Assembly: GCA_944320775.1 (NCBI GenBank)
Contig: CALUIV010000008.1
Span: 33,386-97,385, forward strand
Length of the DNA: 64,000 nucleotides
Source: an uncultured Paraprevotella sp.
GTDB lineage: Bacteria > Bacteroidota > Bacteroidia > Bacteroidales > Bacteroidaceae
Reading direction: 5' to 3'
Below are positions 23,445 to 39,373 of this stretch, one piece after another. Made by a program: the position numbers and the translations under genes. The notes under the pieces are model-generated. The model saw only the letters and a program-made list of their open reading frames with translations, was not told the DNA's origin and did no database searches. The first letter of the stretch is position 1, and every line of letters begins with the position of its first letter.

Positions 23445-25445
23445 TCAGAGGCGAACGGTGACGGGTTTTCCAGGGGCCGACTGATAAACGCGCGGCCGGT
23501 CTTCGCCTGCTTCCCGGATGCTGATGCGGAGTTTGCCGTTTGACAGACGTTTTACGTCGATATCGAAATCGCTACCGAAGGCCCGGATGCGACGCAGCGC
23601 CATGTGGTCCCAGTTTTCGGGCAGACGCGGAGTGAGAGTGAAGCGGTGCAGGCCGGTCGGTCGTATGCCAAAGAGTCCTTCGGTAATGATGCGTCCGTAG
23701 AGTCCGCTTTCAGCGGAGAGGTGGCGCTGTTCGCCTTCGGGCCATGCTTCGATAGCGTAAGGCACGTGGGCTCCGAGCAGACGTGTGCGGGAGTAGTCGT
23801 GCAGGAAAGCGGTGGCCTTTTCGGTGGCTCCGGCTATGTAGACTCCGCGCAAGGCGTAGAGCGTCGAGCGGTCCCAGAAAGTACTGGTTCCGGCCTGGGT
23901 GAGCAGTCCGTTCTCAGTCCAGAGGCGAGGTGAGAAGAGGGCGCGGATAGTGCCTTCTGCACGTTCGTCGATGCCCATGGTGAGCGGGATGCAGATCCAG
24001 GAACGCAACACGTCGTTGCCCTGATAATAGGCATAGGTGTCGAACCCTTCTACGTTAGCTCCGAAATAGTGTTCGATGGCAGCGCGCAGTTGTTTGGCTT
24101 GCCGGCGGTATCCGTTGGCAGTGGCCTTTCCCTGTTGCAGCTCGTCGGACAGGTAGGCCGCAGAAATCAGTGCGTCGTAATAAAGGGCCGAGGTGCAGAG
24201 GTTGGCTTTTCCGGCTGGGAAGCGTCCTTCTAGTTCGTCGGCATCAGAGGCGACAACTCCCTCGGGGGTCAGCTGGCGCTTGCAGTATTCGAGGCACCAG
24301 GCGATCAGTGGCCACAGCGTCTCGGCTTCCTGTCTGTCGCCTCGGGCCAGTGCGTAGCGAGCCGCACCGTATGCGATCATGGCGGCATCGCCTCGGTCAC
24401 CTGCTCCGTTCCATATGTCCTTGCCCTCGGCAATGATGGAACTTGGGATGGGTTTCCATTGGTCGTTCATGAAGCGGGCGAAATGGCGGAAGGCGTTCAG
24501 GGCTGAACGGTTGCCGTAGTCGTAACCCGTGAAGGGGAAATAGGGATTGATGTATTCTGCCTGGTCGTTTGCCCAGATGGCTGCATAATAGGATTCTCCG
24601 CCCGGACCGTGTAGCGGGCCGCCGGCTGTTTCGTAGATGCTTTCGCAGGCCCGTATTTTTGAGAACGCAAACATTGTGTTGATGATGGTGTCGGGGGTTT
24701 CCAGTATCAGATTCTCAGACAGCTGGTGAAGAAAACTACGGCGAGCGTTTTCTTCCGTTCCGGCATTGAACTGTAGCGGGGATTCGCCCTTCCGTTGGCC
24801 GGATATGGAGGCGGAGAAGGCCAGTGACTTGCCCGGTTCGAGGCGGAATGTTCCGCTGCCGTTCAGACGGCAGCAAAGCATATAGGATCCGTCGACACCT
24901 GTCCGGGCATCGGTGTAGGAAATGATTTCCGTTTGGGGAATCTCGATGGATAGTGCCTGATTTCCGGTGTTGGTCAGCGTGTAGCGCTCGATTAGGGCAG
25001 GTTGTGCGCTTGAGGGGAAATAGCAGCGTGTCGTTTTGAGTTTTCCTTTCCAGCCCAGATCGACGGTGCCTTCCGTGCGCAGGGTACCGTCGAGAAATAC
25101 CGTTTCAGTTTTTTCATTTTCGAGTGTCAGGCCGTTGACTGAGACGAGTTGTAACGGATCCCAGGCGAAACGGCGCATCAGGCTGGCGTGTGTGTTGTTA
25201 GGAACGGTACGCAGCATAGGCCAGACCATGCTTTTGTTGATGTGGAATTGTCCTTGGCTGTCAATGCCGTAACGCAGGACGACTGATACGCTTTTCCCGC
25301 TCATTTCGATATGGTCGGTGTGCGGCTTGCCGTTAGTTTTCCAGACAATTTCTCCGCGTTCGGCGATTTTCCAGATATCCGTTGCGGCACCTGCACAGAT
25401 CGTACAGCAAAGGGCAAACAGGGTATAGAATAGTTTGTTTTTCAT
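23445..25445 (-). CDS. Six-hairpin glycosidase-fold protein, exported
   Basis: 666 residues with a signal peptide (LFYTLFALCCTICAGAA). An N-terminal beta-sandwich (to about 240) precedes an (alpha/alpha)6 barrel (about 255-600) with ACESIYETAGGPLHGPGG, AAIWANDQAEYINPYFPF, DADELEGRF and SAESGLYGRIITEGLFGI. The layout resembles GH78-like and related retaining or inverting enzymes, but I cannot name a family or confirm the catalytic acids. It is the last gene of the operon that starts with the IclR gene. The likely job is to release the sugar that the cytoplasmic enzymes of the operon process. Confidence 0.78.
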   Translation of the reverse strand: MKNKLFYTLFALCCTICAGAATDIWKIAERGEIVWKTNGKPHTDHIEMSGKSVSVVLRYGIDSQGQFHINKSMVWPMLRTVPNNTHASLMRRFAWDPLQLVSVNGLTLENEKTETVFLDGTLRTEGTVDLGWKGKLKTTRCYFPSSAQPALIERYTLTNTGNQALSIEIPQTEIISYTDARTGVDGSYMLCCRLNGSGTFRLEPGKSLAFSASISGQRKGESPLQFNAGTEENARRSFLHQLSENLILETPDTIINTMFAFSKIRACESIYETAGGPLHGPGGESYYAAIWANDQAEYINPYFPFTGYDYGNRSALNAFRHFARFMNDQWKPIPSSIIAEGKDIWNGAGDRGDAAMIAYGAARYALARGDRQEAETLWPLIAWCLEYCKRQLTPEGVVASDADELEGRFPAGKANLCTSALYYDALISAAYLSDELQQGKATANGYRRQAKQLRAAIEHYFGANVEGFDTYAYYQGNDVLRSWICIPLTMGIDERAEGTIRALFSPRLWTENGLLTQAGTSTFWDRSTLYALRGVYIAGATEKATAFLHDYSRTRLLGAHVPYAIEAWPEGEQRHLSAESGLYGRIITEGLFGIRPTGLHRFTLTPRLPENWDHMALRRIRAFGSDFDIDVKRLSNGKLRISIREAGEDRPRVYQSAPGKPVTVRL

Positions 25446-25469
25446 TTTCCGTATTTTTATTTTCAGTCG

Positions 25470-26384
25470 TTATTTGATGATGCAGACGTCTGAGATCATT
25501 CCGAAGCGCTCGTTGTCGTTCAGAGTCCAGACAACCTTTCCTTCAGTGTCGAGCTCAAAGAGTTGCGGACTGTTTGCTTCTCGGGCTTGCGGAGCATGTC
25601 CTTGCCAGTTACAGATATACAAGCCACCGTTTTCCGATCTGTTCAGTCCGGCCACGAAGAAAAGTTTTACGCCCGGAATATCATCTTCACCATAACGTTT
25701 GATGATTTCTCCGGTTTTCAGGTCTGCCAAGAGTAGGGCGTGCCGGTCTCCGCAGGCAATCCAGCAGACGTTTCCCTGTTCATGCAACAGCGTGAAATAG
25801 TTTCCTTCGAATGTACTTGAATGTATCTTTTTTCCTTCCGGTGTCAGTTCGAGAATATCCGTGCCCCCCATCAGCGGGATGAGATAGTTTCCAGAAGCGT
25901 TTTTATTGATCTGGCGGAATTGTGCGTGTGGGTGAGCGATGCCGGTTTCGAATGTGGTCCGGCTGAGTTCTTTACCGTTCTGGTCGGTTTCGAGAATCAC
26001 AGCCGGATGTCCGGTCCATGCCAGCAGAATATGGCCGTCGGGAAGTACCCGCGCTGTCTGCATTTCGCAATTTTCAGGAGCAGGAATGTCCCATATTATT
26101 TCGTGGTTTCTGTTGACCATACGTGCTCCTTTTTTATAGGAAAATACTACATTTCCGTCTGATGTACAACTTACCGAGTTGCATTCCCAGTCAGCTTCCA
26201 GAGGATAACTCCATTCGATTTCTTTGGTCGCTTTGTCGATGATGACCACTTGATTCCATCCAGATCCGCCCATAAGTAATTTTACCGGGCGAGGATGGCA
26301 GGACGCGAACAGAAAAAGCGTAAAGAAAAGCCCTGCCCATATCAGGGGCAGGGACAGGTTCCGATATAAATTTTTCAGTAACAT
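25470..26384 (-). CDS. Beta-propeller lipoprotein of unknown function
   Basis: 304 residues; lipobox at Cys29 (LFASC). Repeated blade motifs such as NQVVIIDKATKEIEWSYPL, DGNVVFSYKKGARMVN, DGHILLAWTG and GLYICNWQGHA resemble PQQ-like/arylsulfotransferase-type propellers. No active site is recognised. The gene is 24 bp upstream of the six-hairpin glycosidase and 35 bp downstream of the aldolase, so it is part of the same operon. It may bind substrate or support the extracytoplasmic redox proteins. Confidence 0.75.
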   Translation of the reverse strand: MLLKNLYRNLSLPLIWAGLFFTLFLFASCHPRPVKLLMGGSGWNQVVIIDKATKEIEWSYPLEADWECNSVSCTSDGNVVFSYKKGARMVNRNHEIIWDIPAPENCEMQTARVLPDGHILLAWTGHPAVILETDQNGKELSRTTFETGIAHPHAQFRQINKNASGNYLIPLMGGTDILELTPEGKKIHSSTFEGNYFTLLHEQGNVCWIACGDRHALLLADLKTGEIIKRYGEDDIPGVKLFFVAGLNRSENGGLYICNWQGHAPQAREANSPQLFELDTEGKVVWTLNDNERFGMISDVCIIK

Positions 26385-26419
26385 TTTCTGATTATTTTAA
26401 TCCATAATGCATTTTTCAA

Positions 26420-27310
26420 TTAATCTGCTGCATGCAATTCATGCTTTAAGTCTTCATACAGTTGACAGGCCTGCTGAGGATTCAGTCCGTCATGGACGAC
26501 GGCATGTACGGCCTGAATCATGGCTATCGGGGCATCACTCTGAAATACGTTCCGTCCCATGTCCACTCCGCAGGCACCATCGTTGATGGCCCGGTAACAA
26601 AGTTCCAGTGCTTCCGGTTCCGGCAACTTCTTGCCGCCGGCAATCACTACAGGCACCGGACAGGATGCGGCAATCTTTTCGAATCCGTCGCAATAATAGG
26701 TCTTGACGATTGAGGCACCGTTCTCGGCACATACGCGCGATGCCAGGGCAAAATAACGTGCGTCACGGGCCATCTGTTTTCCCACGGCCGTAACGCCCAT
26801 GACTGGGATACCGTAGCGGTTTCCCAAGTCGGCCGCTTTGGTCAGGTTTGCCGCCGTGATGGCTTCCTGTTCGCCGTCTCCGGCCGAGAACATGACGGCC
26901 ATTGCCGAAGCATTGCACCGGATGGCATCCTCAATGTCGATCAGTACGTTCCGGTTTAGTTCAGTCAGAATGGTCGATCCGGCATCCGAACGCAGACAAA
27001 CGGGTTTGTTCACTTGGGGCGGGATAGACGTGCGCAGAATGCCACGGGTGCACATCAGGCAGTCGGCATATTCGGTCAGGGGAACAATATTCAGATCAAT
27101 GCGCTCCAGTCCGGATGTCGGTCCCATGATAAAGCCATGATCGAAGGCCAGCATCACAGTGCGTCCGGTTTTGGGATTAAAAATACGTGACAGTCGGTCT
27201 TTCATGCCCCAATCTGCGTTTGATGCGCCTTTGACATGAAATCCTGTTTGGGTAACAGCCTTTCCGAAACCGAAGTCGGAGGCTTCTTTGAATCCATCTG
27301 TATCAGCCAT
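26420..27310 (-). CDS. LsrF/FbaB-family class I aldolase or thiolase
   Basis: 296 residues. Very similar in motif to LsrF of enteric bacteria: SRIFNPKTGRTVMLAFDHG, GLERID, CTRGILR, Schiff-base Lys203 in IVKTYY, CPVPVVIAGGKKLPEPEALE and DMGRNVFQSD. LsrF cleaves 3-hydroxy-5-phosphonooxypentane-2,4-dione in autoinducer-2 breakdown; other members of this TIM-barrel family are ketose-phosphate aldolases. No lsrA, B, C, D, G, K or R is nearby; the neighbours are a DhaK/DhaL kinase and a sugar isomerase. I infer cleavage of a phosphorylated ketose or diketone made by that kinase. The assignment to AI-2 use is not supported by context. Confidence 0.85.
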   Translation of the reverse strand: MADTDGFKEASDFGFGKAVTQTGFHVKGASNADWGMKDRLSRIFNPKTGRTVMLAFDHGFIMGPTSGLERIDLNIVPLTEYADCLMCTRGILRTSIPPQVNKPVCLRSDAGSTILTELNRNVLIDIEDAIRCNASAMAVMFSAGDGEQEAITAANLTKAADLGNRYGIPVMGVTAVGKQMARDARYFALASRVCAENGASIVKTYYCDGFEKIAASCPVPVVIAGGKKLPEPEALELCYRAINDGACGVDMGRNVFQSDAPIAMIQAVHAVVHDGLNPQQACQLYEDLKHELHAAD

Positions 27311-27350
27311 AGTCTGGTAATCTTAAAATGATAAAAGCTTAGTGTTAAAC

Positions 27351-27417: not shown

Positions 27418-28041
27418 TTATTGATTTAATGCGCCGGCGAAAGCCTGAAACAGGCAACTCCACGACATGGCACCGCTATCGGCAAAACCGATTGAACGTT
27501 CGCCATAGTTTCGTGCCCGTCCGAAATTAGCCTTCATCTGTATGGTCGCTTCTGCTCCCCGAGCGGCGGCCTCGGCTCCTTTCTGCATCAAAAGGGCGAT
27601 ATCGTCTCCTTCGGTTTGCTGTATGGCTTCGACGGCGGGAACCAAAGCATCCATCATTGTCTTGTCTCCTGGTTTTGCCTGCGTCTGTAGCCGGACGTTG
27701 GCCAGACCGCCGGAAAACATCCGGCGCACACCGTTTGCGTCGAGTTCCGTACCTTCTGCCTGATCGCTCATACCCAGGAAGAATGCTCCCAACAGCGTAC
27801 TTGTAGATCCACTGACCTGAAGCATGACATCGAACCCCATGTCGTTGAGCATGGTCTTGAACTCTGTTCCTTTTTGTGCCGTATGGGTGACGGCGGTCAT
27901 GGCGGCAACGATGGCCTGACCGTGGTCTCCGTCGCCGATGATGGCATCCAGACGGGAAAATTCATCTTCGCGCTCGCGGATCATTTCCAGTGCACGGACA
28001 AGCATGCCTTTAAAATCATCGATCGTGAGTTTTGTTTTCAT
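27418..28041 (-). CDS. dhaL: Dihydroxyacetone kinase-type subunit DhaL
   Basis: 207 residues, the normal DhaL length. The nucleotide/Mg-binding aspartates are Asp32, Asp37 and Asp39 in LDAIIGDGDHG; SGSTSTLLGAFFLGM and SGGLANVRLQTQAKPGDKTMMDAL complete the ADP-binding site. DhaL supplies the nucleotide for phosphoryl transfer to the ketose held by DhaK. No DhaM phosphotransfer protein is encoded nearby, so the pair may use ATP directly or a remote donor. It lies 28 bp after dhaK. Confidence 0.93.
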   Translation of the reverse strand: MKTKLTIDDFKGMLVRALEMIREREDEFSRLDAIIGDGDHGQAIVAAMTAVTHTAQKGTEFKTMLNDMGFDVMLQVSGSTSTLLGAFFLGMSDQAEGTELDANGVRRMFSGGLANVRLQTQAKPGDKTMMDALVPAVEAIQQTEGDDIALLMQKGAEAAARGAEATIQMKANFGRARNYGERSIGFADSGAMSWSCLFQAFAGALNQ

Positions 28042-28069: not shown

Positions 28070-29077
28070 TTATTTCCCGATGACGGTCCAATATGGAGCG
28101 TTCGAAGGTTTATTCTTCAGATAGTTGATGTGATCGTCGTCCAGACGGGCCAGAATCATCTGGAATCCGGCCTGCTCCTGAACGGTCAGCAGTTCCTGAA
28201 TCCGGCTGACAGCAATCTGAAGTCCGCGGGCTTCAAGTTCTTTATAAGCTTTACGGAAGACGATATTTAATTCCATGTGTGTGGTGGCTCCTACGCCGTT
28301 GATGATGAGCATCATTTTATCTCCGGCTTGCGGTTTGAGCTGCTGACAGAGCAGATCAACCATTTCCGCAGCTGTTTCATCGGCTGAAACCAATGGCTTT
28401 TGTCCGCCTCCGCCTTCTCCATGTTGTCCCATTCCTATTTCCATAATTCCTTCGGGCAGATCCGTAATTGTGGCGCCGTTTTGCGGGTGTGAACATGATT
28501 TCATGGCTACGGCCAGCGTGGCTACGTTTTTGTTGTATCGTTCTGCCATTTCTACCAGTTCTTCGAGTGATTTGCCTTCTTCTGCGGCGGCACCCAGAAT
28601 CTTGTAAAGCGGTACACATCCAGCGAGTCCGCGGCGGTCGCTATCCGGAGCACCGATACCGGCACTGATATCATCATGGGTCAGCACCTTGGCCACGCGG
28701 ATGCCTGCACGTTCTGCCAGCTGGCAGGCCATATTGGCACTCATCACGTCTCCCGAATGGTTCAGAACGACAAGCAGAATACCAGCTTCGCGTTTCATCA
28801 GCTGCAGGGCCTGGAACAACCGTTGTGCGCCGGGGGCTGCAAAAATATCGCCTACGACAGAACAATCGAGCATGCCTTCGCCCACGAATCCGCTCAATGC
28901 CGGTTCGTGGCCGGAGCCACCCAAAGTGACGATGGCTACTTTGTCGTTGCTTTTAGGATTGGCACGTACGACGATATTTTCTGCTGCAAGTTTTACCTGT
29001 TCTGGATAAGCCAGTACGTAGCCTTCCAGTAATTCTGTTGTAATATGTTCCGGATCGTTGATAAATTTGTTTTTCAT
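28070..29077 (-). CDS. dhaK: Dihydroxyacetone kinase-type subunit DhaK
   Basis: 335 residues. His57 in GGSGHEPA and His219 in GMGQHGEGG correspond to the conserved histidines that bind the ketose, the second as a covalent hemiaminal. SDRRGLAGCVPLYKI and INGVGATTHMELNIV are also typical. Related two-subunit kinases phosphorylate dihydroxyacetone or erythrulose. The operon context (isomerase, LsrF-like aldolase) suggests a less common ketose. It sits between the VOC-protein gene and dhaL. Confidence 0.93.
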   Translation of the reverse strand: MKNKFINDPEHITTELLEGYVLAYPEQVKLAAENIVVRANPKSNDKVAIVTLGGSGHEPALSGFVGEGMLDCSVVGDIFAAPGAQRLFQALQLMKREAGILLVVLNHSGDVMSANMACQLAERAGIRVAKVLTHDDISAGIGAPDSDRRGLAGCVPLYKILGAAAEEGKSLEELVEMAERYNKNVATLAVAMKSCSHPQNGATITDLPEGIMEIGMGQHGEGGGGQKPLVSADETAAEMVDLLCQQLKPQAGDKMMLIINGVGATTHMELNIVFRKAYKELEARGLQIAVSRIQELLTVQEQAGFQMILARLDDDHINYLKNKPSNAPYWTVIGK

Positions 29078-29176: not shown

Positions 29177-29491
29177 TTATTTGATTTCCATCAGTTCGAT
29201 GGCAATACCTTCTTCTTCGATGAAAGCAATCGTCAGATGTTCGTCGCAGACAGCAGGGCCGAACAGGATGTTCTTGTCTTTCAGTTCCGCTTCGAGCGAG
29301 GGTACCGTATAGGCAATGTGTCCTTGCTTCTGTACCAGTTCCGGCATACAACTTCCCGCTTCGAATTTAAGAAACTCAATGCGGTTGGGGCTTTGGTTGA
29401 AATCGGTGAGCCATACGCTTAATCCTTCGTTATATACGGCTCCTTCAGGAATGGTGTCGGTGATCAGACCGACGTGGTTAAATGTTCTCAT
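29177..29491 (-). CDS. VOC (glyoxalase/epimerase-fold) protein
   Basis: 104 residues of the vicinal-oxygen-chelate fold: N-terminal FNHVGLITDTI with the first metal-ligand His, the middle GHIAYTVPSLEAEL with the second His, and the closing strand AIELMEI with a Glu. Such metal enzymes catalyse isomerisation, epimerisation or C-C chemistry on 2-keto compounds. It could process an intermediate between kinase and aldolase; this is inferred only from its position in the operon. Confidence 0.8.
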   Translation of the reverse strand: MRTFNHVGLITDTIPEGAVYNEGLSVWLTDFNQSPNRIEFLKFEAGSCMPELVQKQGHIAYTVPSLEAELKDKNILFGPAVCDEHLTIAFIEEEGIAIELMEIK

Positions 29492-29586: not shown

Positions 29587-32076
29587 TTATTGCAAATCTT
29601 CTGCCGGCGTGTTTCCTTTTCCTGTTTTAAGGTATTTTCGTATGGTATATCCGGAATAAAAACCAAGCAAAAGTATCAGACCGAAGGCCAGTGCGATCCA
29701 AGTGAACAGATGGGCGATATGATCGTTCTGTCCGTAGGAATGCATGCCGCTGAGGAAGTAGTTTACACCGAAGAAAGTCATGAGGACCGTCGAAAAAGCC
29801 AGTACTGAAAGCAGGTTGAACAACCATTCCTTCAGGGCGAATTTCTGTAAATGGATGTGAGTTACCAGAGCGTAGATAATCATGGTGACGAGTGCCCATG
29901 TTTCCTTGGGATCCCAGCCCCAGTATCGTCCCCACGACTCGTTGGCCCAGATTGCTCCGAGGAATGTTCCGACGGTCATCAGAGCCAGTCCGATCCAGAG
30001 CATGATTTCGTTTACAATGCTAAGTTCCCGGATTTTCGTTCCGATGCGTGTTGCCTTACCGGATTTGGGCATCAGGCACATCAGCGTCATATTGCTGATA
30101 CCCGTCAGACAACTGAGGCCGAAGAAACCATAGGCTGCCACAATGACGGCAACATGAAACATCAGCCAGGGAGATTTCAGTACGGGGACGAGTGTGGTGA
30201 TCTGCGGATCCATCCAGTTCAGTCCCGCAACAAAGAGAATCACACCGCCGAACAGTGCGGCTAGCGCAAAGACCAGCAAGTTGCGGCGGATGAACAGGAA
30301 TCCGGCCAAAACAGTGGTCCACGAAACGTAGACCATGGTTTCATAAGAATTGCTCCAGGGGGCATAGCCTCCGATATACCAGCGTAAGCCCATGCCATAC
30401 ATGTGGAACAGGAATACGGCAAGGATGCCGGCGACGAACAGTCCGTCAATCCACTTGCTGCGCCGGATTCCGAAAAGGCAACCGACAGCCCAAAGCAGGC
30501 AGAGTCCGCCCAGTATCAGATAACCAAGCCGACAACGGGCAAACACATTCAGCCGGTTGTATTTCACTTCTGTTTCCATTTTCCTATGGGTAATGTTCAC
30601 ACCCGTCGCTCTGGCCTGCTGATAGGTGTCGATCATGTCCAAGACATCGTCAGCAGCCTTCCAATCGCCACTACCAGTCAGCGCTTGGGCAACTTCTTCA
30701 AGATACCAGTCCAATATACGCACGGCGAAGAGAGAATCCTTGCCGCTGAAGACAGACAGGTCGTCGCCTGGAGCATACCACGTGTGGCTGGAATCGTTTG
30801 GGAGTGGGAAAATGCGGAGCAGGCGCCGTTCGGCAACCAGATGAAAGATGTTGGCCTGTTCGTCCAGTTTTAGAAGGTCCTTTTCGGTGCCGTTCCGCTG
30901 GGCCGGATTTTTCCGGTAACAGTCTTCTAGATCCTTGCTCAGTTTGTATTGTCCCTGATGGTTGAACAATTGGGCAAAGGAGGTATAGGGTGTCCCCAGA
31001 CCATAACGGGCAGCCAGTTCATCATTGTCCAAAGCAATGAGGGGGATTTCTGCCCATACGTCGGGCATGAGCAATAGGCTTACGAGAAATTGGTTGGGAT
31101 TGAGACCGTCGAAATGGTTCTCTTTGTAGAGTTTACGCAGAATTTCCGATGCAAATGTGTTTATGGGCATCATGCGGCCTTCTTCGGTCTGCATGGGTAG
31201 GCATCCGAAACGGTTGGCATGTGCTTCGCTGACCCGGTAGCGCGATACCGTCTTTACAGCTTCTGCAGCTTCCGGCGCGGCCGTAACTCCCGCAAATGGA
31301 TAAACGAGCAGGAACAGCAGGATGAGCGGGCTTTTCTGCAGCTCTTTCAGCTGACGGCAGAGTCGGCGGAAGCGTGTGTTGCGTCCCGTAAACGATAAAA
31401 TGAGGCCTAAAAACAGCAGGGCATAGCCGGTGTAGGTGATTTTCAGACCGACTGTGTCGTGGCTCACCGAGAGCACGCTGCCCAGTTCGTCTGGGTCATA
31501 GGAAGCCTGATACAGACGGTAACCATCTATTTTGAGCACTTTGTTCATGTAAATGTGTGCGTCGTATGTATTCTCGTGGGTCTGAATGGTGACGAAACTT
31601 TCATAAGAAGATGGACTTCCGGAACCGGGATAGCGCCGGAGTACAAAATCGTCCAGCCGGATTGAGAAAGGCAGTTTGCAGGTCTGCGCCGTCTGAGTGT
31701 CTTTTCCCGGCAGGAGCATGTGGTCCGATGTTTCACCTTCGCGCAGATGAATCAGTCCCTCCTGTCCCCAGAAATGGGTTACGGCGGCTCCTGTCAGGAT
31801 CACGACCAGTGCAAAATGGGTTATCGTCAGGCCCGGTCGGCGTCTGAGGGTCAAATAATGATGTCTGCCAGCCAGCAGAAAAAAGTTGGCAACCAGCAAT
31901 ATTTGCAATACGATCAGTGTCGGGGCATGATAGACCAGATCTTTGGCCGTTTGTGTTCCAAACAGTTTTTCAATCCAGGTGGCCGAGCCCAAAAGGACGG
32001 TATAGAGGACCATGAGGAGGATTGTCGTGCGGAAAGAAGCGAGCAGGGCGACAGCCCGGGTAATGATTCGGTTCAT
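29587..32076 (-). CDS. ccsBA: Fused ResB-CcsA cytochrome c synthetase (system II)
   Basis: 829 residues from ATG 32076. An upstream in-frame ATG at 32136 falls in the loop of a strong hairpin and is less likely. The N-terminal half is ResB-like (membrane helices, then a periplasmic domain with haem-side histidines). The C-terminal half is CcsA with many helices and the haem-handling signature WGRYWGWDPKETWALV (about residues 735-750). The enzyme moves haem across the membrane and attaches it to CXXCH motifs. The two c-type cytochrome-like proteins of the same operon are its obvious clients. The gene is downstream of one of them. Confidence 0.93.
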   Translation of the reverse strand: MNRIITRAVALLASFRTTILLMVLYTVLLGSATWIEKLFGTQTAKDLVYHAPTLIVLQILLVANFFLLAGRHHYLTLRRRPGLTITHFALVVILTGAAVTHFWGQEGLIHLREGETSDHMLLPGKDTQTAQTCKLPFSIRLDDFVLRRYPGSGSPSSYESFVTIQTHENTYDAHIYMNKVLKIDGYRLYQASYDPDELGSVLSVSHDTVGLKITYTGYALLFLGLILSFTGRNTRFRRLCRQLKELQKSPLILLFLLVYPFAGVTAAPEAAEAVKTVSRYRVSEAHANRFGCLPMQTEEGRMMPINTFASEILRKLYKENHFDGLNPNQFLVSLLLMPDVWAEIPLIALDNDELAARYGLGTPYTSFAQLFNHQGQYKLSKDLEDCYRKNPAQRNGTEKDLLKLDEQANIFHLVAERRLLRIFPLPNDSSHTWYAPGDDLSVFSGKDSLFAVRILDWYLEEVAQALTGSGDWKAADDVLDMIDTYQQARATGVNITHRKMETEVKYNRLNVFARCRLGYLILGGLCLLWAVGCLFGIRRSKWIDGLFVAGILAVFLFHMYGMGLRWYIGGYAPWSNSYETMVYVSWTTVLAGFLFIRRNLLVFALAALFGGVILFVAGLNWMDPQITTLVPVLKSPWLMFHVAVIVAAYGFFGLSCLTGISNMTLMCLMPKSGKATRIGTKIRELSIVNEIMLWIGLALMTVGTFLGAIWANESWGRYWGWDPKETWALVTMIIYALVTHIHLQKFALKEWLFNLLSVLAFSTVLMTFFGVNYFLSGMHSYGQNDHIAHLFTWIALAFGLILLLGFYSGYTIRKYLKTGKGNTPAEDLQ

Positions 32077-32122
32077 AGGAGTATTCTGTGTTGTTTCTTT
32101 TTGTTGTTTTGTTGCAAGAAGA

Positions 32123-32155
32123 ACATGAGGGAGCATTCCACGAGCTCCCTCATGT
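32123..32155 (-). other. Intercistronic hairpin before ccsBA
   Basis: Perfect 11-bp arms ACATGAGGGAG (32123-32133) and CTCCCTCATGT (32145-32155) with an 11-nt loop, 17 bp after the stop of the 1330-residue gene. Without a strong U run, it may be a partial terminator or an RNase-protection element tuning expression of the synthetase. Confidence 0.65.
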
Positions 32156-32171: not shown

Positions 32172-35100
32172 TCAGTCTTCGATAATCACACGGAAACCGA
32201 CGTTGAATACCCGCTGGTAAGGGTAGAAACCTTTACGGGAGTAGGATGTGGCGAACTTAGGCCGTTCGATGAACGATCCGCCGCGCACCGTCTTGTACTC
32301 AGCCTCCGGGTTTTTCCGTTCCTTATACGGATAGGGCACATAGTCCGAGCGAGTCCATTCGCAGACGTTTCCATGCATGCAGTAGAGTCCGAACGGGTTA
32401 GCCTCGTAGTGCTTTCCGCCGATCTGTACCAGATTGCCGTCGTTGACTCCTTCTTCCTTAGGCAGGAAGGTATAGTATTTGTACCAGTAGTTACCCGGCG
32501 ACATTGGCTGCGGATTGACTCCCGATACGGCAAACTTCAGCGTGGTCTTGTCGGCCAGGTTGTCCTTGGTGCCGAAATCGGCATGTAGGTCACCGAACCA
32601 GAAGTCGTCTGCGCTTCCTGCACGGCAGGCCCATTCCCATTGCGCTTCGGTGGGCAGTGTGATGTTCAGCCCCGTCTGTTCGCTCAGTTTCCGGCAGAAC
32701 TCCATGGCATCGTTGTAACTGACGCGGATGACCGGCTGCTGAGGTTCGTTGGCTGGATAGCCCTGTACCACGTGGTCTTTCCATTGCTGGTCGATGTAGC
32801 GGCTGTCGTGTTCAGGGAAGAACACACCGAATTGCTCATTTGTTACCTCGAGTTCGCCCATCCAGAAGGCTTTCTTGATTTTCACCTTGGTCGTCGGATA
32901 CGTGTCGGACGGGCCGGCATAGCTACCCATCACAAATTCTCCGGCCGGAATGCGTACGAAGTTCATGGTGACGCCCGGTGCCAGTTCTATCGTCTTCCGA
33001 GTTTCGCCGCACGCCTGTTGCCGGGCTTGTGCCTCTTCGGCCGGGAACGGCCATTCTTTTGCCTTCAACGTTTTTTGTTTCACAGGCTTTTCAGGTTCCG
33101 GCATTTCGGGTGTTATGGTTCCTTTTGATTTCAGATAGCCGGCATAGTCGGACAGTTCTTTCTTCCAGTCTACGCCCGCGCCGTTACCGTATTTGTTGGT
33201 CAGTTCGATGCGCCGTTCGATCTGGTCGAAGCCTTTATAGGGAAGCCCGCGCAATACGTTGGCGTTGAAGTAGCCCTTGTCGGGAGCATTGTAATCGATC
33301 CAGTTATAGAGCGTGCGCCATTCCTTGCCCGTGAGCTGGACGTTGTAGTGCCCGCGTTTCAGCATACGCACGAGTTCGCTCGTGTTTGGATGGTATTCAT
33401 AGGGCTGGAGTACCACCATGTCACCTTCGCCGCCTTGTCGGTGTATGTATGGATGGAAATTCAGATACGACAGTCCGTAGCCTCGTTCGTCTTTCTTGCC
33501 CCCGCGCAGGTCGAAAGCCTTTTCACCGTTGTGGCAGGCGATGCAGGCGCGGTCCAGAATTGGCTGGATTTCCAAGTCGAACGTGAACGAGCGTACGCCA
33601 CCTTCGGGTGGAGTCAGGCGGTGGGGTTCGCGCTGCGAGGCGATGACCCGTTTCGGGATGGCGATCTGGTTCTGGTCTTCGTGACATCCGATGCACGATA
33701 CGACTTCACCCGGCTGGCCGGTCACCCAACTGCGCATCCACTGCACGGCCACACCATCCTTGTCAATCGGCTGGATGGAAATCGGTGTGTTGGCAGGCGC
33801 CTTGAAGATTACCGATCCGTCTTCTTCCACGGGAACGGTGCCGAGCAGGCGCTTGATGTCCCAGCCCGACTGGATGCCGTGCCAGTTGTGATCGGACTCG
33901 GTCTGCACGTAGGCATATTCGTAGGCGTGCAGGCGGAGCTCCTTGACGGTACCCCGCGGGATGCCGCGCAGCCCTTCACCCTCGTAAATATCCTGGATGA
34001 AGAAGGTGGCTTCGCGCTGGTCGAGCTTCACACGGTCGGGGATGACGGGCGGTGTCGGGGTCTTGCGGACCAGTACAGGGCTGATGTAGCCTTCGCCTTC
34101 AGTGCGCATGATGCACGTCACGTTGTCGAATACGTCGACAAGGTAGATGCCCCAGAGAGCATCGGGCGACAGCTTAGCCGCCACGAGGAAATATTTGTCG
34201 TTAAGTACCGTGGGTTTGATGAACTGCGGCCATACGCCGTTTACCAGTTCGTCCTTGATGAGTTCCTGAATAGGGCGGTTGCGATAGGGGATCTCTTGCA
34301 CCATGCCGGCCGTACTCTTGCGCCCCTTGGCCGGATCGAACACGATCAGGCGTCCGGAACGGGCTATGCCGTGATGGCCCGAGATGATGCCAATAAAGGC
34401 CGAACCGCTGCCGGGCAGGGGCTGTACGTCGAACGTGCTGTTCGGGAACATGGCTCCGCTACCGTAGAGGGCTTTGTTTTCAGTGCCGTCGGGGTTCATG
34501 TGCATGACGATGCGCGAGTAGTAGTGTGTCAGGTCAGTGTACTCCCATCGGGTGTACATGACGCGTCCGTTATTCATCACCACAGGGTTCCAGTTGGCAT
34601 CCTGGTCGAAGGTGAGTCGGCGCAGGTTCTTGTCCTTCGGGTTGTAGAGCACGAGATTGCCCACGGCATCACTGCCGTTCACGCAGGGCACGCCCTGATA
34701 GCCAATGTTCGACACGGCCAGAATTCGTCCGTCGGGCAGATAGGTGCCGTCGTAGAACTCCAGATCGGGCTCTTCGTTTTCGATGATGCGGTGCAGGCCC
34801 TTACCGTCGGTGCCCACTTCGAACACGTTCCATCGGCGGTCGTCCTGCAGCTGGGTGAACATCATGCGGTCGCCGTTCCAGTGCAGGCGCAGGTCGGCCA
34901 CAGATGATCCGCCGGATGGACGGTAGATGGTACGCCGCCGGATGGGACCGCGCAGATTGGAAAGTTCCACGATTTCTGCGTTGAATCCGCCGCGTCGGGC
35001 CGACTCTTGGTTACTCCAGTTGTTCGATTGGGTACCCAGATCGGGAGCCATGGCTTTTCGGGAATTATTGCCCAGCACATAGCGGGCAGCAATGATGCGG

Positions 35101-36164
35101 TCGGCATCAAGCAATGGGTTGGCTAGCAGGATGTCACGCTTGATCTGTAAGGCGCGGCGGGCATTGGCGATGGCTTCAGCATCGCCCTCATAAATGCCCC
35201 GGAATCCTTTTTTCACCAGTGTTGACAGTTCGTCGAGCTGGGCGGCATATTTTCCTGCCGGATACTTGGGGTCTTTCCGCATATCGTCGAAAGCCAGACG
35301 CACGGCTGATACATTCAGCCAGGCCAGATCTTCCTGCAATTCGGCAATCTGCCGGATTTCACGAAGCAGTTCCAGTGCCATGCGTGTTTGCTGTTCGAGT
35401 GATTTTTCGGTGGTAATTTGCTCGAGACGCCGGCGGTAATGTTGCGGATGCTGGAAAGCGTTGATGATTCGTCCAGCTTCCTGCATTTCTACGGCAGGAC
35501 CGCCTGCAACGAACCATTTGTCTACTTGACCTACATAGAATTGCAGTGAATCGTAGGCTGTGGGATGTGTTTGCTGCCATGTCTTGGCGTATTCGGCTGG
35601 ATCCTGATGAAGTACTTTGAAGTAGACACTGCCGGCATACGAACCGTCGTCGATGCCCACTTCGGCTTCGAAGCGTTCGAATTCGTTCTTTTTCAGTTCA
35701 TAGATCAAAAGGCCGTCGGCATGACAGAACATACCGTGTTCATAAGTCTTTCCGGCAATACTTAGCGGTTTTCCGGAAAGATTCTTGTTCGCGACGGGGT
35801 TTCCCCAACCAGCCTTGCTCCGGAGGGGTTTCAGATCGTCGAGCCAGACGTATGTACCGTCGCGCCGGATGAGCCGAGCATTGGCCCAAACGGCATGATC
35901 GTAACTATCGCCATCGGGCCCTCCGTCAGTGATGAGCACCAGTCGTGCGGCATCCTTCAGTGGGGCGCTGACCGTTTCGGCGGGCATATTTCGCTTCATG
36001 CAGACGGATACGACGGGCAGTCCGTGTTTTTGCAGACTGGTTTGCAGTTCAGTCTTGGCCTGTGCCGCTTCTACGGTCCAGGTCTTCGGAGCTGTCCGTT
36101 GGCCCCACGCCAGACCCAAAGGACCGGCGAGCAGACTGCAGGTGACTAAAAAATGCGATTTCAT
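32172..36164 (-). CDS. NPCBM / HzsA-like / di-CXXCH / SUMF1 multidomain protein
   Basis: 1330 residues. Signal peptide (to about 21); NPCBM-type carbohydrate-binding module (about 70-190; DDLKPL..GWGNP and YEHGMFCHADG); helical linker (about 240-365); a large beta-propeller like the HzsA (hydrazine synthase alpha) middle domain (about 395-800); two c-type haem motifs CIGCH (824-828) and CIACH (874-878); and a C-terminal SUMF1/FGE-sulfatase domain (about 1065-1330; IPAGEFVMGS, LPTEAQWEWACRAG, HGNVCEWTRSD, VRGGSF). This order is known to me mainly from Planctomycetes and other environmental bacteria. In bacteria such SUMF1 domains often lack oxygenase activity. Likely a periplasmic or surface redox protein bound to carbohydrate; the reaction is unknown. 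Confidence 0.85.
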   Translation of the reverse strand: MKSHFLVTCSLLAGPLGLAWGQRTAPKTWTVEAAQAKTELQTSLQKHGLPVVSVCMKRNMPAETVSAPLKDAARLVLITDGGPDGDSYDHAVWANARLIRRDGTYVWLDDLKPLRSKAGWGNPVANKNLSGKPLSIAGKTYEHGMFCHADGLLIYELKKNEFERFEAEVGIDDGSYAGSVYFKVLHQDPAEYAKTWQQTHPTAYDSLQFYVGQVDKWFVAGGPAVEMQEAGRIINAFQHPQHYRRRLEQITTEKSLEQQTRMALELLREIRQIAELQEDLAWLNVSAVRLAFDDMRKDPKYPAGKYAAQLDELSTLVKKGFRGIYEGDAEAIANARRALQIKRDILLANPLLDADRIIAARYVLGNNSRKAMAPDLGTQSNNWSNQESARRGGFNAEIVELSNLRGPIRRRTIYRPSGGSSVADLRLHWNGDRMMFTQLQDDRRWNVFEVGTDGKGLHRIIENEEPDLEFYDGTYLPDGRILAVSNIGYQGVPCVNGSDAVGNLVLYNPKDKNLRRLTFDQDANWNPVVMNNGRVMYTRWEYTDLTHYYSRIVMHMNPDGTENKALYGSGAMFPNSTFDVQPLPGSGSAFIGIISGHHGIARSGRLIVFDPAKGRKSTAGMVQEIPYRNRPIQELIKDELVNGVWPQFIKPTVLNDKYFLVAAKLSPDALWGIYLVDVFDNVTCIMRTEGEGYISPVLVRKTPTPPVIPDRVKLDQREATFFIQDIYEGEGLRGIPRGTVKELRLHAYEYAYVQTESDHNWHGIQSGWDIKRLLGTVPVEEDGSVIFKAPANTPISIQPIDKDGVAVQWMRSWVTGQPGEVVSCIGCHEDQNQIAIPKRVIASQREPHRLTPPEGGVRSFTFDLEIQPILDRACIACHNGEKAFDLRGGKKDERGYGLSYLNFHPYIHRQGGEGDMVVLQPYEYHPNTSELVRMLKRGHYNVQLTGKEWRTLYNWIDYNAPDKGYFNANVLRGLPYKGFDQIERRIELTNKYGNGAGVDWKKELSDYAGYLKSKGTITPEMPEPEKPVKQKTLKAKEWPFPAEEAQARQQACGETRKTIELAPGVTMNFVRIPAGEFVMGSYAGPSDTYPTTKVKIKKAFWMGELEVTNEQFGVFFPEHDSRYIDQQWKDHVVQGYPANEPQQPVIRVSYNDAMEFCRKLSEQTGLNITLPTEAQWEWACRAGSADDFWFGDLHADFGTKDNLADKTTLKFAVSGVNPQPMSPGNYWYKYYTFLPKEEGVNDGNLVQIGGKHYEANPFGLYCMHGNVCEWTRSDYVPYPYKERKNPEAEYKTVRGGSFIERPKFATSYSRKGFYPYQRVFNVGFRVIIED

Positions 36165-36192
36165 AATCAGTTCTCTTTTTGTGGAATTTGGC

Positions 36193-36765
36193 TTAGAGCG
36201 CGGCGTTTGCGTTTGTGAATCTCAATCCGTCGTTGTCGTGATAGCAAGCCCATTCATCGACAATGGCACCTTCGGGGCCGGCCATCATGAAGTGGAACGA
36301 CTCGAGCTGTTTCAGTCGGAGTACGTCGCCTACTTCTTGTTTGACGAAGTTTTTGCTGCGTATTGGTCCGTGCGTTTCAGGAATCTGTGGTGCATCAGGT
36401 GTTTCATCTCCGATTTCTGCAAAATTGTAGACCCATCCGTGTTCCACCATCCATGATTCGTGTTTAGCCGGGAATCCGGGTGTAGCCACATGAGCATGCT
36501 CGGGAATCATCTGTCCGGGCAGGAGATAGATGGCGTGAGCAAAATAACGATATTGTGGGTCGTTAACCCAAAAGATACCTCCCATGCCGACGTGTTCAAA
36601 GTCGCCAAGTCCGAAATCCGTAACCCACATTTCCTTTTCCATTAATGCTGTAAACGGTACGTTGTAGAATTTAAACATGTCTTTCATTGCTTCGATGGCT
36701 ACGGCCTGTTGGAACTGACCGTCTTTGTAAAAATCACTGTTGGTAAATTTTTTGCTGTACTTCAT
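36193..36765 (-). CDS. Cupin-type sugar isomerase (D-lyxose ketol-isomerase-like)
   Basis: 190 residues forming one cupin barrel. Likely metal ligands are the two His in PEHAHVAT, a Glu in AKHESWMVEHGW and His in the second motif, with closing VDEWACYHDN. This pattern resembles the D-lyxose isomerase/YdaE-like family, which interconverts an aldose and a ketose. No signal peptide, so it should act in the cytoplasm. It sits between the two cytochrome-like genes, 28 and 35 bp apart, and would produce the ketose that DhaK/DhaL phosphorylates. Confidence 0.72.
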   Translation of the reverse strand: MKYSKKFTNSDFYKDGQFQQAVAIEAMKDMFKFYNVPFTALMEKEMWVTDFGLGDFEHVGMGGIFWVNDPQYRYFAHAIYLLPGQMIPEHAHVATPGFPAKHESWMVEHGWVYNFAEIGDETPDAPQIPETHGPIRSKNFVKQEVGDVLRLKQLESFHFMMAGPEGAIVDEWACYHDNDGLRFTNANAAL

Positions 36766-36800
36766 GGCTTTTGTTTTGTTTAAAGGTTTTATTTTTATAA

Positions 36801-38576
36801 TTATAATGAATTGACATATTCGGTCAATGCTTCAATATCCTTCTTGGACACTTTACGATCGATGCCGTGGCGATGCACTTCGAATACTTCGCGCATCGTA
36901 GCTGCACGTCCGTCGAAAAGATAAGGTGCCGTGCGCCATACCTCGCGCAGTGTCGGTGTGTCCCAACCTTTTTCAAACTCCACGTCATCGCCGATTCGGT
37001 GCATCTGGCAGTCGGTGAAGTAGGGGCCGCTATGACAGGAACCACAACGTAACTGTTCGAATACTTTCTTTCCCTGTTGTGCCTTTTCGGAGAGTTTTCC
37101 ATCGACCAGCCAAGGACTGGGTACGGGGCGGAGCGATTTAAGATAAGCGTCAACACAACGTGCATCCTCCTCGTTTACTTCGAAGAACTGAATAAAACGG
37201 AATCCTGCACGTACAGCCCATTCTGCCGATTCACGCACACCGGAAATCATACTGGGTGGTGTAACATGGCTAAAAAGCATGCTTTTACAATTCTTAGAAT
37301 TACCTACGCCATCGTTCATCAGGTCCCAGTTCATACCGTCGGTGCGGGCATCGCCAGGGTGACATCCGTTACAGCTCTGCCAATTTTGGAAACAATGGGA
37401 GGCGTCATTGAAACAACGTTCGCCCCGATCGCGATCGGTTTCCTGTCGGTTGGGGTTTAGGTTATAGGCTATGCAGGCTCCAGTCTGGGTGTCAACTGTA
37501 TTCAGTATGTCGGCAAAGTAGGTCGGGACATAGAGCTTTCCTTCGGCCAGCAGGATAGCTCGCGGCCCATTTCCTTCCAACGGGATGCGGCGGCGCAGAC
37601 CGTATAGAAACGTCAGGTCGTATTCCAACCGTTCTTTATCTGGATAGGCTTGGAATTTGCGGAGCATATCCTGATGACGGATGATACTGATTTCGTGGGT
37701 ACCGGAATGTGACAGATAAATGTTTTTTTCGTCGCAAGCAATACCCCAGACTCCGGCCGCACCCCGTTCGGGTTCGTCGACGATCACAACGCCCTGGAAC
37801 TCCTGCGTTTTTGCATCGATGACACTGATCGCACTTGTGTTCATCCAACCTTGTTGCAGTTGGGATGTTGGTACAGTGTAGCGTCCTAAATTATGAGACA
37901 CGTAGATATAACGTCCATCCGGCGTGATGCAGATATCGCGCAGGGCATTGCTTCCGTTAGCCAGGCGGATGTCTTTTATTTTCTTGAACCGTTTCAGATC
38001 GATAACTGAAACACAGGCTGCCACATAATCTACATCAGCTCTTTGAGCCGGCAGGAAATTGGCTACGAAAAGAAAGCGTCCGTCTGTACTCATTACGGCT
38101 GAACGGGGTTCGCGCAACACTTCGACTGTCCGTTTACATTCATTCGTATTGAGGTCGATTTCGGAAACTGTGTTTTGGAATTGATTGCAGACATACAGGT
38201 GTGTTTTATCTGGATTCAATATTGGGGCACATGCACCAGATCCGGTATTGATTGTACGAACAGTCTTACCGGTAGAACGGTCGATGACATGCAGTTGGCC
38301 CTGGGTTTCGAAAGTTGTGACATAGAGATAACGTCCATCGTTGTCAATCAGACCCGTTGGAGGTGCATTGAAGTGATATTCACATCCCGTTCGTTTTCCG
38401 TCGGGCGTGTAGACAACGACTTTTTTGGTTCCCTTTTCAGCAATAAGCAAGTTTCCTTGCGGATCAGCACAAATATCTGTCGGATAAAACGGGGTTTGAG
38501 CAAAAGTCGTTGTGGTCGGCATGACGCTGACCACAACGCTCCATAGCAGTAAACGGAAAATTTTGTGTAATTTCAT
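36801..38576 (-). CDS. YncE-like propeller fused to di-haem peroxidase-like domain
   Basis: 591 residues; signal peptide (to about 27, TTTTFAQ). Residues about 30-370 are a seven-bladed propeller (DGRYLYVTTFETQGQLHVID and similar YVTN repeats). Residues about 385-591 resemble di-haem cytochrome c peroxidase/MauG-type proteins with CNGCH (402-406) and CGSCH (511-515) and the tail TPTLREVWRTAPYLFDGRA. It should be exported and need CcsBA for haem attachment. Relatives include electron-transfer and modifying enzymes, so peroxide may not be the substrate. First gene after the regulator, 14 bp downstream of it. Confidence 0.87.
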   Translation of the reverse strand: MKLHKIFRLLLWSVVVSVMPTTTTFAQTPFYPTDICADPQGNLLIAEKGTKKVVVYTPDGKRTGCEYHFNAPPTGLIDNDGRYLYVTTFETQGQLHVIDRSTGKTVRTINTGSGACAPILNPDKTHLYVCNQFQNTVSEIDLNTNECKRTVEVLREPRSAVMSTDGRFLFVANFLPAQRADVDYVAACVSVIDLKRFKKIKDIRLANGSNALRDICITPDGRYIYVSHNLGRYTVPTSQLQQGWMNTSAISVIDAKTQEFQGVVIVDEPERGAAGVWGIACDEKNIYLSHSGTHEISIIRHQDMLRKFQAYPDKERLEYDLTFLYGLRRRIPLEGNGPRAILLAEGKLYVPTYFADILNTVDTQTGACIAYNLNPNRQETDRDRGERCFNDASHCFQNWQSCNGCHPGDARTDGMNWDLMNDGVGNSKNCKSMLFSHVTPPSMISGVRESAEWAVRAGFRFIQFFEVNEEDARCVDAYLKSLRPVPSPWLVDGKLSEKAQQGKKVFEQLRCGSCHSGPYFTDCQMHRIGDDVEFEKGWDTPTLREVWRTAPYLFDGRAATMREVFEVHRHGIDRKVSKKDIEALTEYVNSL

Positions 38577-38590
38577 GGGTGTGTATTTTT

Positions 38591-39373
38591 TTATGTGTTT
38601 TTTACAAAGCCGAGTTCAGTAGAGATCAGATCTGCTGTTCGCATAATCCGTTCGGCATCGAGCTGGAGTGTTTGGGGGGCAAGGCGGTCTTTTGGCCCCG
38701 AAATCCAAATGGCACCACAAGGATAGCCTTTATAGTTAAATACGGGGGCGCCGATACAGATTACGCCCGTAAGTTCTTCTTCGTTGTCCAAAGCATATCC
38801 TGTCTGCATCACGTGCTCGAGTTCTTTCAGATAGTCTTCCCTGCTGGTTATCGTCCGTTCGTTGTAGGGACGGAAATCCATATACGACAGGTAACGCTCA
38901 CGTACGCTGGCCGGTAAGTAGGCCATAATGGCTTTTCCCGGAGCTGAGCAGTGGAGTTCGAAGGCTTTGCCGGGTGAAAGCGTAAAACTGAAGGCATGCA
39001 GTCCTAAAGCCTGATCGATAAAGATACCTTTTTCTTCACCAAGTACACCGAAACAGGCCGTTTCTTTCGTTTCATCGCGAAGATTACGCAGATGAGGTAG
39101 TACGGTTTCGAGTAACTGATGTTCGTTTAGGGCTCTAAATCCCATTGTTAATAGTTTGCGCGAGAGTTTATAGCGTTTAGAATCTTCGTTATAAGTCAGA
39201 TATTCCAAACGCACCATGGTATTTAAGATACGATAGGCTGTGGTCTGGGAAATTTCCAGATCGTTCTTAATTTCCTGTAGGGTTTTACCTTTTGTACTGT
39301 AAGAAAGATAATCTAATACAGCTAATCCTTTTTCTAAATTAGGTACTTTATAGTTAGTATCTAGATTTTCCAT
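38591..39373 (-). CDS. IclR-family transcription regulator
   Basis: 260 residues. Winged helix-turn-helix at about 15-80 (LQEIKNDLEISQTTAYRILNTMVRLEYLTY) and an IclR effector-binding domain at about 90-255 (LHCSAPGKAIMAYLP; NEELTGVICIGAPVFN; GAIWISGP). IclR proteins sense small carbon compounds and repress or activate nearby catabolic genes. It is the first gene of the operon and lies 24 bp from a palindromic candidate operator, which points to autoregulation together with the whole operon. Confidence 0.93.
   Translation of the reverse strand: MENLDTNYKVPNLEKGLAVLDYLSYSTKGKTLQEIKNDLEISQTTAYRILNTMVRLEYLTYNEDSKRYKLSRKLLTMGFRALNEHQLLETVLPHLRNLRDETKETACFGVLGEEKGIFIDQALGLHAFSFTLSPGKAFELHCSAPGKAIMAYLPASVRERYLSYMDFRPYNERTITSREDYLKELEHVMQTGYALDNEEELTGVICIGAPVFNYKGYPCGAIWISGPKDRLAPQTLQLDAERIMRTADLISTELGFVKNT

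Follow-up and report, generated by a model that had tools for sequence, protein, structure and literature searches.

Hydrazine synthase-like haem proteins in a conserved sugar catabolic gene cluster of Bacteroidales

Why would an operon with the genes of a sugar pathway also encode c-type haem proteins and a factor for their maturation? The question is raised by eleven genes at positions 23445–39373 of a 64,000-nucleotide stretch of DNA (hereafter, the window) from an uncultured Paraprevotella sp. (assembly GCA_944320775.1, contig CALUIV010000008.1, positions 33,386 to 97,385). A preliminary description of this operon, based on the letters of the window, had proposed that an extracytoplasmic oxidation or electron-transfer step is tied to the use of an uncommon sugar. 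We find that two of the encoded proteins correspond to the subunits of hydrazine synthase (HZS) of anammox bacteria, and that their genes recur with those of the isomerase, kinase, and aldolase in other Bacteroidales. The system is genuine and conserved, and combines two HZS-like haem proteins with sugar catabolism. The proposed linkage between sugar use and haem step is borne out in part, at the level of the genes; oxidation of the sugar is a candidate for the haem step.

Two publications treat HZS as a nearly isolated enzyme and leave open what the known HZS-like genes do (PMC12758564, PMC10732223). The first describes alpha and beta-gamma homologues in Planctomycetota, Desulfobacterota, and a few other groups, with Bacteroidota mentioned for beta-gamma; the second suggests that HZS-like enzymes may be a wider family with alternative substrates. 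HZS-like genes are already in print, and the new part is their setting in a sugar operon. The word "sugar" is absent from the main text of PMC12758564. Among the papers listed in searches of an open-licence library, covered mostly as titles and the beginnings of abstracts, none described this operon or a sugar setting for HZS-like genes.

The proteins of the operon were checked against Pfam and NCBIfam. For the HzsBC-like protein, the best NCBIfam family was the HzsBC fusion (105.7 bits, below the cut-off of 1250). Using phmmer against the PDB, HZS beta (5c2v_B, E 2.1e-22) matched over the propeller and HZS gamma (5c2v_C, E 9.2e-16) over the di-haem part. The protein has the seven-bladed propeller and di-haem domain of HZS beta-gamma; both domains had been recognized in the preliminary description, which missed the kinship. 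Foldseek ranked 5c2v_B as the top PDB match of the predicted structure (E 1.1e-22), followed by 1l0q_A (E 1.4e-16). Assignment of the gamma half is putative and rests on sequence, as the model of the di-haem domain is poor. Both CxxCH motifs, Cys395, Cys430, and His437 were invariant in 72/72 beta-gamma sequences, an alignment that includes the window and leaves out short or split open reading frames (ORFs).

The HzsA-like protein carries HZS_alpha (Pfam, 124.7 bits), NPCBM, and FGE-sulfatase domains on a single chain, consistent with its earlier designation as an HzsA-like/SUMF1 haem protein. With a profile of residues 255–1060, 5c2v_A (E 3.4e-8) was the sole PDB match below a limit of E 0.1. 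In Foldseek, the two top PDB matches of the model were HZS alpha chains (5c2v_A, E 1.2e-21 over 788 alignment columns, then E 3.0e-20), and the next best had an E of 6.8e-9. The alpha fold of HZS, a propeller with motifs for haems alpha-I and alpha-II, was thus found, and two CxxCH motifs were present in all 67 aligned sequences (window included; short or split ORFs left out). The structure alignments were built on 37 and 27 chosen rows. By the alpha and beta-gamma matches, each of the two HZS components has a relative encoded in the operon; the two proteins are an HZS-like pair by fold and subunit correspondence.

Subunit composition and overall fold would suit a true hydrazine synthase, or another maker of N–N bonds, but the active-site and ligand residues differ. 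The position of gamma-His144 was occupied by Ile in 72/72 sequences, and the segment of gamma-Cys165, the third covalent haem link, fell in a gap of the alignment with 5c2v_C. These residues were mapped by hand on the phmmer alignment, in which, as a control, His144 and Cys165 landed on His and Cys of 5c2v_C. At the position of alpha-Tyr591 (His+4 after the first CxxCH), 66 of the 67 sequences have Asn and the remaining one has Ser; this position was counted from the CxxCH His, as the profile alignment ends just past that residue. There was no Tyr within 17 residues after the first motif of the window protein. The equivalog cut-offs of NCBIfam were also missed by far, the HzsA-like protein scoring 45.8 bits against 800 for HZS alpha. 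Lacking the HZS catalytic residues, the pair was rejected as a hydrazine synthase, and N–N bond formation of any kind is extremely improbable.

The homologues described in PMC12758564 (clades I–IV) and PMC10732223 likewise have co-located alpha and fused beta-gamma genes, and those of PMC12758564 also lack the HZS catalytic residues; in the HZS of Scalindua japonica, beta and gamma are fused as well (PMC12758564). Clades I–III differ from the window group in carrying Trp at the gamma-His144 position, described there as a CCP/MauG feature, and in lying near genes for FG-GAP proteins, whereas the window group has Ile and is found with cupin, DhaKL, LsrF, and CcsBA genes (PMC12758564; the comparison covers clades I–III). 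Unlike the alpha subunit of the anammox enzyme, the HzsA-like protein has additional NPCBM and FGE-like domains, and the anammox enzyme sits with anammox genes rather than in a sugar operon. These residue tests place the group outside both HZS and the CCP/MauG enzymes.

The same residues bear on a different role for the di-haem domain. The HzsBC-like protein could be a maturase similar to MauG or MbnH, which, through peroxide or haem redox chemistry, would modify HzsA, the propeller lipoprotein, or the cupin so that it gains a protein-derived cofactor, one of these being the true sugar enzyme. Consistent with this, the di-haem domain matched the NCBIfam families MbnH (34 bits), MauG-like (32.9), and tryptophan tryptophylquinone MauG (26.9), all far under cut-off, as well as di-haem enzymes in the PDB (6e1c, E 1.9e-4; 1iqc, E 0.002), and Cys395 and Cys430 are two additional cysteines shared by all 72 sequences. 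However, the matches to HZS beta and gamma are stronger than those to the MauG families, and the CCP/MauG Trp is replaced by the invariant Ile. We consider a maturase unlikely.

The ORF check of the window confirmed eleven minus-strand genes with gaps of 14–107 bp, as first described. From the 23445 side to the 39373 side, the gaps are 24, 35, 107, 28, 99, 95, 35, 28, 35, and 14 bp. In the direction of transcription, the genes are as follows:

38591..39373, minus strand, IclR-family regulator, 260 aa (Pfam IclR_C, 126.7 bits; HTH_IclR, 39.1 bits)
36801..38576, minus strand, HzsBC-like protein with a seven-bladed propeller, a di-haem domain (CxxCH at 402 and 511), and a signal peptide recognized by eye
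36193..36765, minus strand, predicted cupin sugar isomerase of the D-lyxose/D-mannose type, 190 aa (profile against the PDB; leaderless in the window)
32172..36164, minus strand, HzsA-like protein with NPCBM, a propeller, CxxCH at 824 and 874, a C-terminal FGE-sulfatase domain, and a signal peptide recognized by eye
29587..32136, minus strand, CcsBA-type cytochrome c maturation protein, 849 aa (Pfam ResB, 84.5 bits; Cytochrom_C_asm, 121.2 bits)
29177..29491, minus strand, VOC/glyoxalase-like protein of 104 aa (PDB glyoxalases matched weakly, E 0.011 at best)
28070..29077, minus strand, DhaK-like kinase subunit (Pfam Dak1, 333.1 bits)
27418..28041, minus strand, DhaL-like kinase subunit (Pfam Dak2, 128.8 bits)
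26420..27310, minus strand, LsrF-type class I aldolase/thiolase (NCBIfam PRK08227, 446.9 bits, cut-off 297)
25470..26384, minus strand, Mala_s_1-like propeller lipoprotein (PF22701, 195 bits; lipobox by eye)
23445..25445, minus strand, glycosidase-like protein, 666 aa (weak GH65 C-terminal match under cut-off; weak MmpH match, E 0.0027)

Pfam and NCBIfam upheld the earlier IclR, CcsBA, DhaK (Dak1), DhaL (Dak2), and LsrF calls, and the Mala_s_1-like propeller agrees with the call of a propeller lipoprotein. The VOC assignment fared less well: the protein had no Pfam or NCBIfam match, and its support is limited to the weak PDB matches listed. For the protein previously called a six-hairpin glycosidase, the matches to GH65 and MmpH were likewise weak. 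CcsBA combines ResB and CcsA-type domains in one protein, as in system II cytochrome c maturation, and scored under the CcsB equivalog cut-off of NCBIfam (157.8 vs 187.6). DhaK (298.1 vs 406.25) and DhaL (128.9 vs 138.3) also fell below their NCBIfam cut-offs. As Dak-family proteins under the equivalog cut-offs for dihydroxyacetone kinase, they may act on a different ketose. The LsrF-type protein aligned with LsrF of the PDB over residues 1–286 of 296 (E 9.1e-103), including a conserved KTYY segment with the Schiff-base lysine of LsrF.

The cupin had no Pfam or NCBIfam match. Its profile (A1) found D-lyxose/D-mannose isomerases in the PDB (7nzo, E 9.3e-16; 2y0o, E 5.3e-12), in keeping with the cupin isomerase proposed earlier. 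Residues H90, H92, E103, and H158 are conserved and align with the metal-site residues His, His, Glu, and His of 7nzo. The cupin is thus a relative of these isomerases, with isomerase activity predicted.

Known pathways account for parts of this gene set. Breakdown of autoinducer-2 (AI-2) by LsrK, LsrG, and LsrF employs an aldolase of the type found here, over the NCBIfam cut-off. However, the kinase of the operon is DhaKL and the isomerase a cupin, and neither LsrK, LsrG, nor an Lsr transporter was recognized among the eleven proteins using Pfam and NCBIfam. AI-2 breakdown was set aside, LsrF fitting and the other Lsr genes going unrecognized in the operon. The fucose and sulfo-Embden-Meyerhof-Parnas pathways also run through isomerase, kinase, and aldolase to dihydroxyacetone phosphate, but would leave a haem-c complex and its dedicated maturation factor without a role. 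Sulfoquinovose, apiose, and fucose pathways were also considered and set aside, no test being in their favour. Periplasmic fructose and glucoside 3-dehydrogenases oxidize sugars and pass electrons to haem c; they use subunits containing flavin adenine dinucleotide or pyrroloquinoline quinone, neither of which was recognized among the eleven proteins (Pfam and NCBIfam).

A conserved neighbourhood had been named beforehand as a test of the operon, and it was found. The scan of named genomes kept the best 80 of 159 beta-gamma relatives, from records named Bacteroides, Parabacteroides, other Tannerellaceae, Dysgonomonadaceae, Rikenellaceae, and others. ORFs were clustered for 72 of the 80 loci, leaving out 8 under 9 kb, and were called with a simple longest-ORF script that gave wrong-strand ORFs in some loci (e.g., L098 and L113). 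At 62 named Bacteroidales loci, 9 kb or more was available downstream of HzsBC; HzsA was present in all 62 of them, the cupin in 61, VOC and DhaK each in 50, a chorismatase-like gene (X) in 44, and CcsBA in 41. DhaL, LsrF, and the propeller lipoprotein were present in at least 27, 18, and 16 loci, respectively, the flank often ending before them. These three genes lay in a row in 8 of 9 extended stretches, the ORF caller having taken the wrong strand in the ninth, and LsrF was present in 9 of 12 genomes searched by way of their loci. An IclR gene occurred in 51 of 73 named loci with more than 1.2 kb upstream of HzsBC. Relatives of the glycosidase-like protein occurred in 7 of the 72 clustered loci (window query excluded).

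Co-occurrence in genomes gave a similar picture. Among 247 genomes of the order, HzsBC with at least 58% identity was found in 8, and the cupin (E up to 1e-20) in exactly those 8; the identity line was drawn after the hits were seen. The probability of this coincidence is 3e-15 if genomes are independent, which they are not. LsrF and DhaK at 71% or more were found in the same 7 of the 8 genomes, the eighth being 61% complete.

The near-constant pairing with a sugar isomerase (61/62 loci; the same 8/247 genomes) argues against a further possibility, that the complex is a reductase of nitric oxide (NO), hydroxylamine, nitrite, or peroxide that is fed by sugar catabolism, with respiration or detoxification co-regulated with sugar. 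The NPCBM domain of the window HzsA also points to sugar, and we noticed no nitrogen-cycle gene among those recurrent neighbour clusters that were annotated. In favour of a reductase, HZS acts on NO according to PMC12758564, and the wider HZS-like family with alternative substrates suggested in PMC10732223 would accommodate it. We regard a reductase as improbable.

It is less probable still that haem and sugar genes became adjacent by chance or through mobile DNA, with no shared function. The system occurs in 1 of 18 sampled genomes of the genus, the window's own, and is patchy across the order, and the DhaK and LsrF genes are not nearby in some loci. A strong HzsBC match was likewise lacking from 19 other sampled genomes of the family; four other genomes of the genus or family matched weakly (E 6.5e-4 to 2.8e-7). 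The sample includes several incomplete genomes. However, the gene set is shared by records named Bacteroidaceae, Tannerellaceae, Dysgonomonadaceae, and Rikenellaceae in several arrangements of equal content, and a second pairing with kinase and aldolase exists (L145, below). Given this recurrence across the order, the gene set is beyond chance assembly. In a quick tree with flagged long outgroup branches, Bacteroidaceae copies were interspersed with Tannerellaceae copies. Judged from this tree, patchy spread by transfer is likely.

The commonest gene order was HzsBC-(X)-cupin-HzsA-CcsBA-VOC-DhaK-DhaL-LsrF-propeller. Relatives of B. cellulosilyticus and Rikenellaceae had HzsBC-(X)-cupin-VOC-DhaK-DhaL-LsrF-propeller-HzsA, three loci (L023, L044, and L078) had cupin-HzsA-CcsBA-HzsBC, and short clusters without the kinase branch were found at L020–L022, L035, and L087. 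A single Bacteroides clarus genome has two sugar/haem clusters, one of each main gene-order type (L114 and L115).

Beyond the preliminary description, both parts of an HZS-like complex are present, the isomerase of the relatives mostly has a lipoprotein-like leader, and most relatives have a chorismatase-like gene. Specifically, an N-terminal extension was found in 56 of 66 cupin ORFs of the relatives and a lipoprotein-like leader, detected with a simple pattern, in 54 of 66, excluding one ORF without the core motif. The window cupin is leaderless, as judged from the 35 bases upstream, and starts 35 bp past the HzsBC stop. In 56 named loci whose flank was long enough, the extension and DhaK were both present in 46 and both absent in 9; one locus had the extension without DhaK, and none had a leaderless cupin with DhaK. 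The window, leaderless yet with DhaK, is a further exception. The number of independent pairs on the tree was three without the window, about 3/3 in the same direction, and four with it (three in the same direction, one without difference). The association was rejected as not significant after correction for descent (p 0.25 or more).

These data suggest how the system might work. We infer that the HzsA-like alpha and fused HzsBC-like beta-gamma proteins form a haem-c complex in the periplasm, loaded with haem by the operon's CcsBA; that this HZS-like complex is linked to sugar catabolism is very probable. The glycosidase would free a sugar from a glycan, and the D-lyxose/mannose-type cupin would convert the aldose to the ketose and back. 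The haem complex would carry out a redox step on this sugar before or at uptake, most likely a two-electron oxidation of the aldose or ketose to a dicarbonyl, with electrons leaving via the haems. In the cytoplasm, DhaKL would phosphorylate the ketose end, and the LsrF-type aldolase would split the phosphorylated product into dihydroxyacetone phosphate and an aldehyde or acyl-CoA. DhaK-type kinases bind small ketoses covalently, and the substrate of LsrF is a phosphorylated dicarbonyl; an oxidation to a dicarbonyl is therefore favoured. Sugar oxidation as the haem step nevertheless remains a tentative assignment, to which we give less than even odds. We put the chance that the whole proposal is correct, from the complex of HZS architecture through oxidation, DhaKL, and LsrF, at about even.

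Several findings weigh against this mechanism or the assignments behind it. The top sequence match of the HzsBC-like protein in the PDB was the YVTN propeller of a surface-layer protein (1l0q_A, E 2e-25), HZS gamma (5c2v_C) was not among the 50 listed Foldseek matches of its model, and AlphaFold confidence was low in the haem-binding parts of both haem proteins. The whole HzsA-like protein found FGE-type structures first in phmmer, with 5c2v_A at E 7.4e-4; its profile match consists of three collinear pieces (propeller, haem I, and haem II), each weak singly; and its N-terminus with NPCBM is poorly conserved. As the window cupin is leaderless, isomerase and haem complex may be in different compartments here. 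No electron acceptor was recognized within the operon, and LsrF itself cleaves a phosphate derived from AI-2. The haem pair was found with neither DhaK nor LsrF nearby in 12 of the 62 loci, and 3 of the 12 searched genomes lacked LsrF; the system can thus occur without its kinase/aldolase branch. With a limit of E 1e-30, HzsBC occurred in 15 of the genomes of the order, of which 7, with copies of up to 50% identity, had no cupin hit; one LsrF relative (44%) and three DhaK relatives (36–37%) occurred in genomes without HzsBC. Finally, the adjoining glycosidases vary between genomes.

If the proposed mechanism is true, a haem-c step is added to carbohydrate use by gut anaerobes, and the rare hydrazine-making enzyme design of anammox bacteria also works on sugars in gut bacteria. 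A broader version is that the complex represents a new enzyme class, an HZS-fold haem complex oxidizing sugar outside the cytoplasm of gut Bacteroidales, within a wider sugar-active family from which HZS was perhaps recruited, and that the product of the chorismatase may be a small redox cofactor. This version is speculative and rather doubtful. The co-located alpha/beta-gamma pair occurs in named strains of Bacteroides, Parabacteroides, and Rikenella, some of which should be culturable and genetically accessible; commensals carrying the full cluster include Bacteroides clarus, B. salyersiae, and Parabacteroides goldsteinii. The adjoining isomerase, kinase, and aldolase can be assayed individually, so the role of the HZS-like complex is directly testable.

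A second HzsA/HzsBC pair was found in one instance with a different set of sugar genes. At L145:1264-9851, the pair and a Mala-type propeller adjoin a xylulokinase, a Zn alcohol dehydrogenase, and DeoC, the xylulokinase and DeoC both over cut-off; GH43 and GH2 genes and two DUF6905 proteins are also present. The same genome carries the main cluster (L146). In L145, a haem pair of this kind thus goes with another sugar pathway, which supports sugar catabolism as the common theme but not the exact reaction.

Gene X was present in at least 52 of the 72 loci, the ORF caller sometimes taking the wrong strand. Its product resembles the Hyg5/FkbO chorismatases (122.2 bits vs a chorismatase cut-off of 325; top PDB match Hyg5, 5ag3, E 8.5e-23). 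In the window, the HzsBC and cupin genes have no X between them, and the genome has only a relative of 26% identity. Genes of the 3-deoxy-D-arabino-heptulosonate 7-phosphate (DAHP) synthase type adjoin HZS-like genes in two distant groups, one with L112 and L114 and one with L138, L140, and L141: L138:12916-13797 is over cut-off (456.2 vs 335) and L112:8878-9636 under it (176.4), and L114:8415-9173, L140:12843-13709, and L141:3769-4650 were recognized by eye. X and the DAHP synthase genes are suggestive of a shikimate-derived cofactor, which remains an idea as the window lacks X. On contig 35 of the window's genome (L136:4430-12446), a second CcsBA lies with imelysin and a DHOR-type di-haem protein (both Pfam), a porin-like protein and a one-haem protein (both by eye), and another Rid/chorismatase-like protein. 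Thus, this genome is a further case of chorismatase-like genes found together with genes for c-type haem proteins. A search of the same genome with a CxxCH DNA pattern was too unspecific, giving 257 hits vs 151 for a reversed-pattern control.

Other copies of the cluster also have glycosidase genes beside them, namely GH130 and GH88 (Pfam) and GH36 and GH31 (by eye) at several loci. In Parabacteroides, an SSF transporter gene and a GH130-type phosphorylase gene (Pfam) lie downstream of one cluster (L117:9505-12486), and an MFS transporter gene and a GH130-type phosphorylase gene (by eye) downstream of another (L110:4846-7183); these gene pairs hint at mannosides. In Parabacteroides gordonii (L109:7214-9037), a reverse-transcriptase-like ORF, of the group II intron type by eye, adjoins an apparently shortened transporter gene.

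Transcription signals of the operon were evaluated by pattern. Terminator-like sites numbered 29 vs 19.1 expected (sd 4.9), of which 28 were intragenic by our count; the sole intergenic site lies between DhaL and LsrF (minus strand, 27395-27379). The promoter scans were uninformative: the Bacteroidetes promoter pattern used had no exact match from 23445 to the GH95 gene upstream of the operon, and E. coli hexamers gave 19 sites vs 15.5 expected. The region's best sigma-70-like match (11/12, window 36827-36800) ends at the HzsBC stop, ahead of the cupin gene. Immediately upstream of the IclR gene, a GH95 gene (Pfam) and a GH35-like gene (by eye) lie 4 bp apart (window 39621-44448), and a sulfatase gene and a GH3-like gene (GH3 by eye) follow on the opposite strand (window 45370-49350). 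Together, these two segments are a second glycan locus adjoining the operon.

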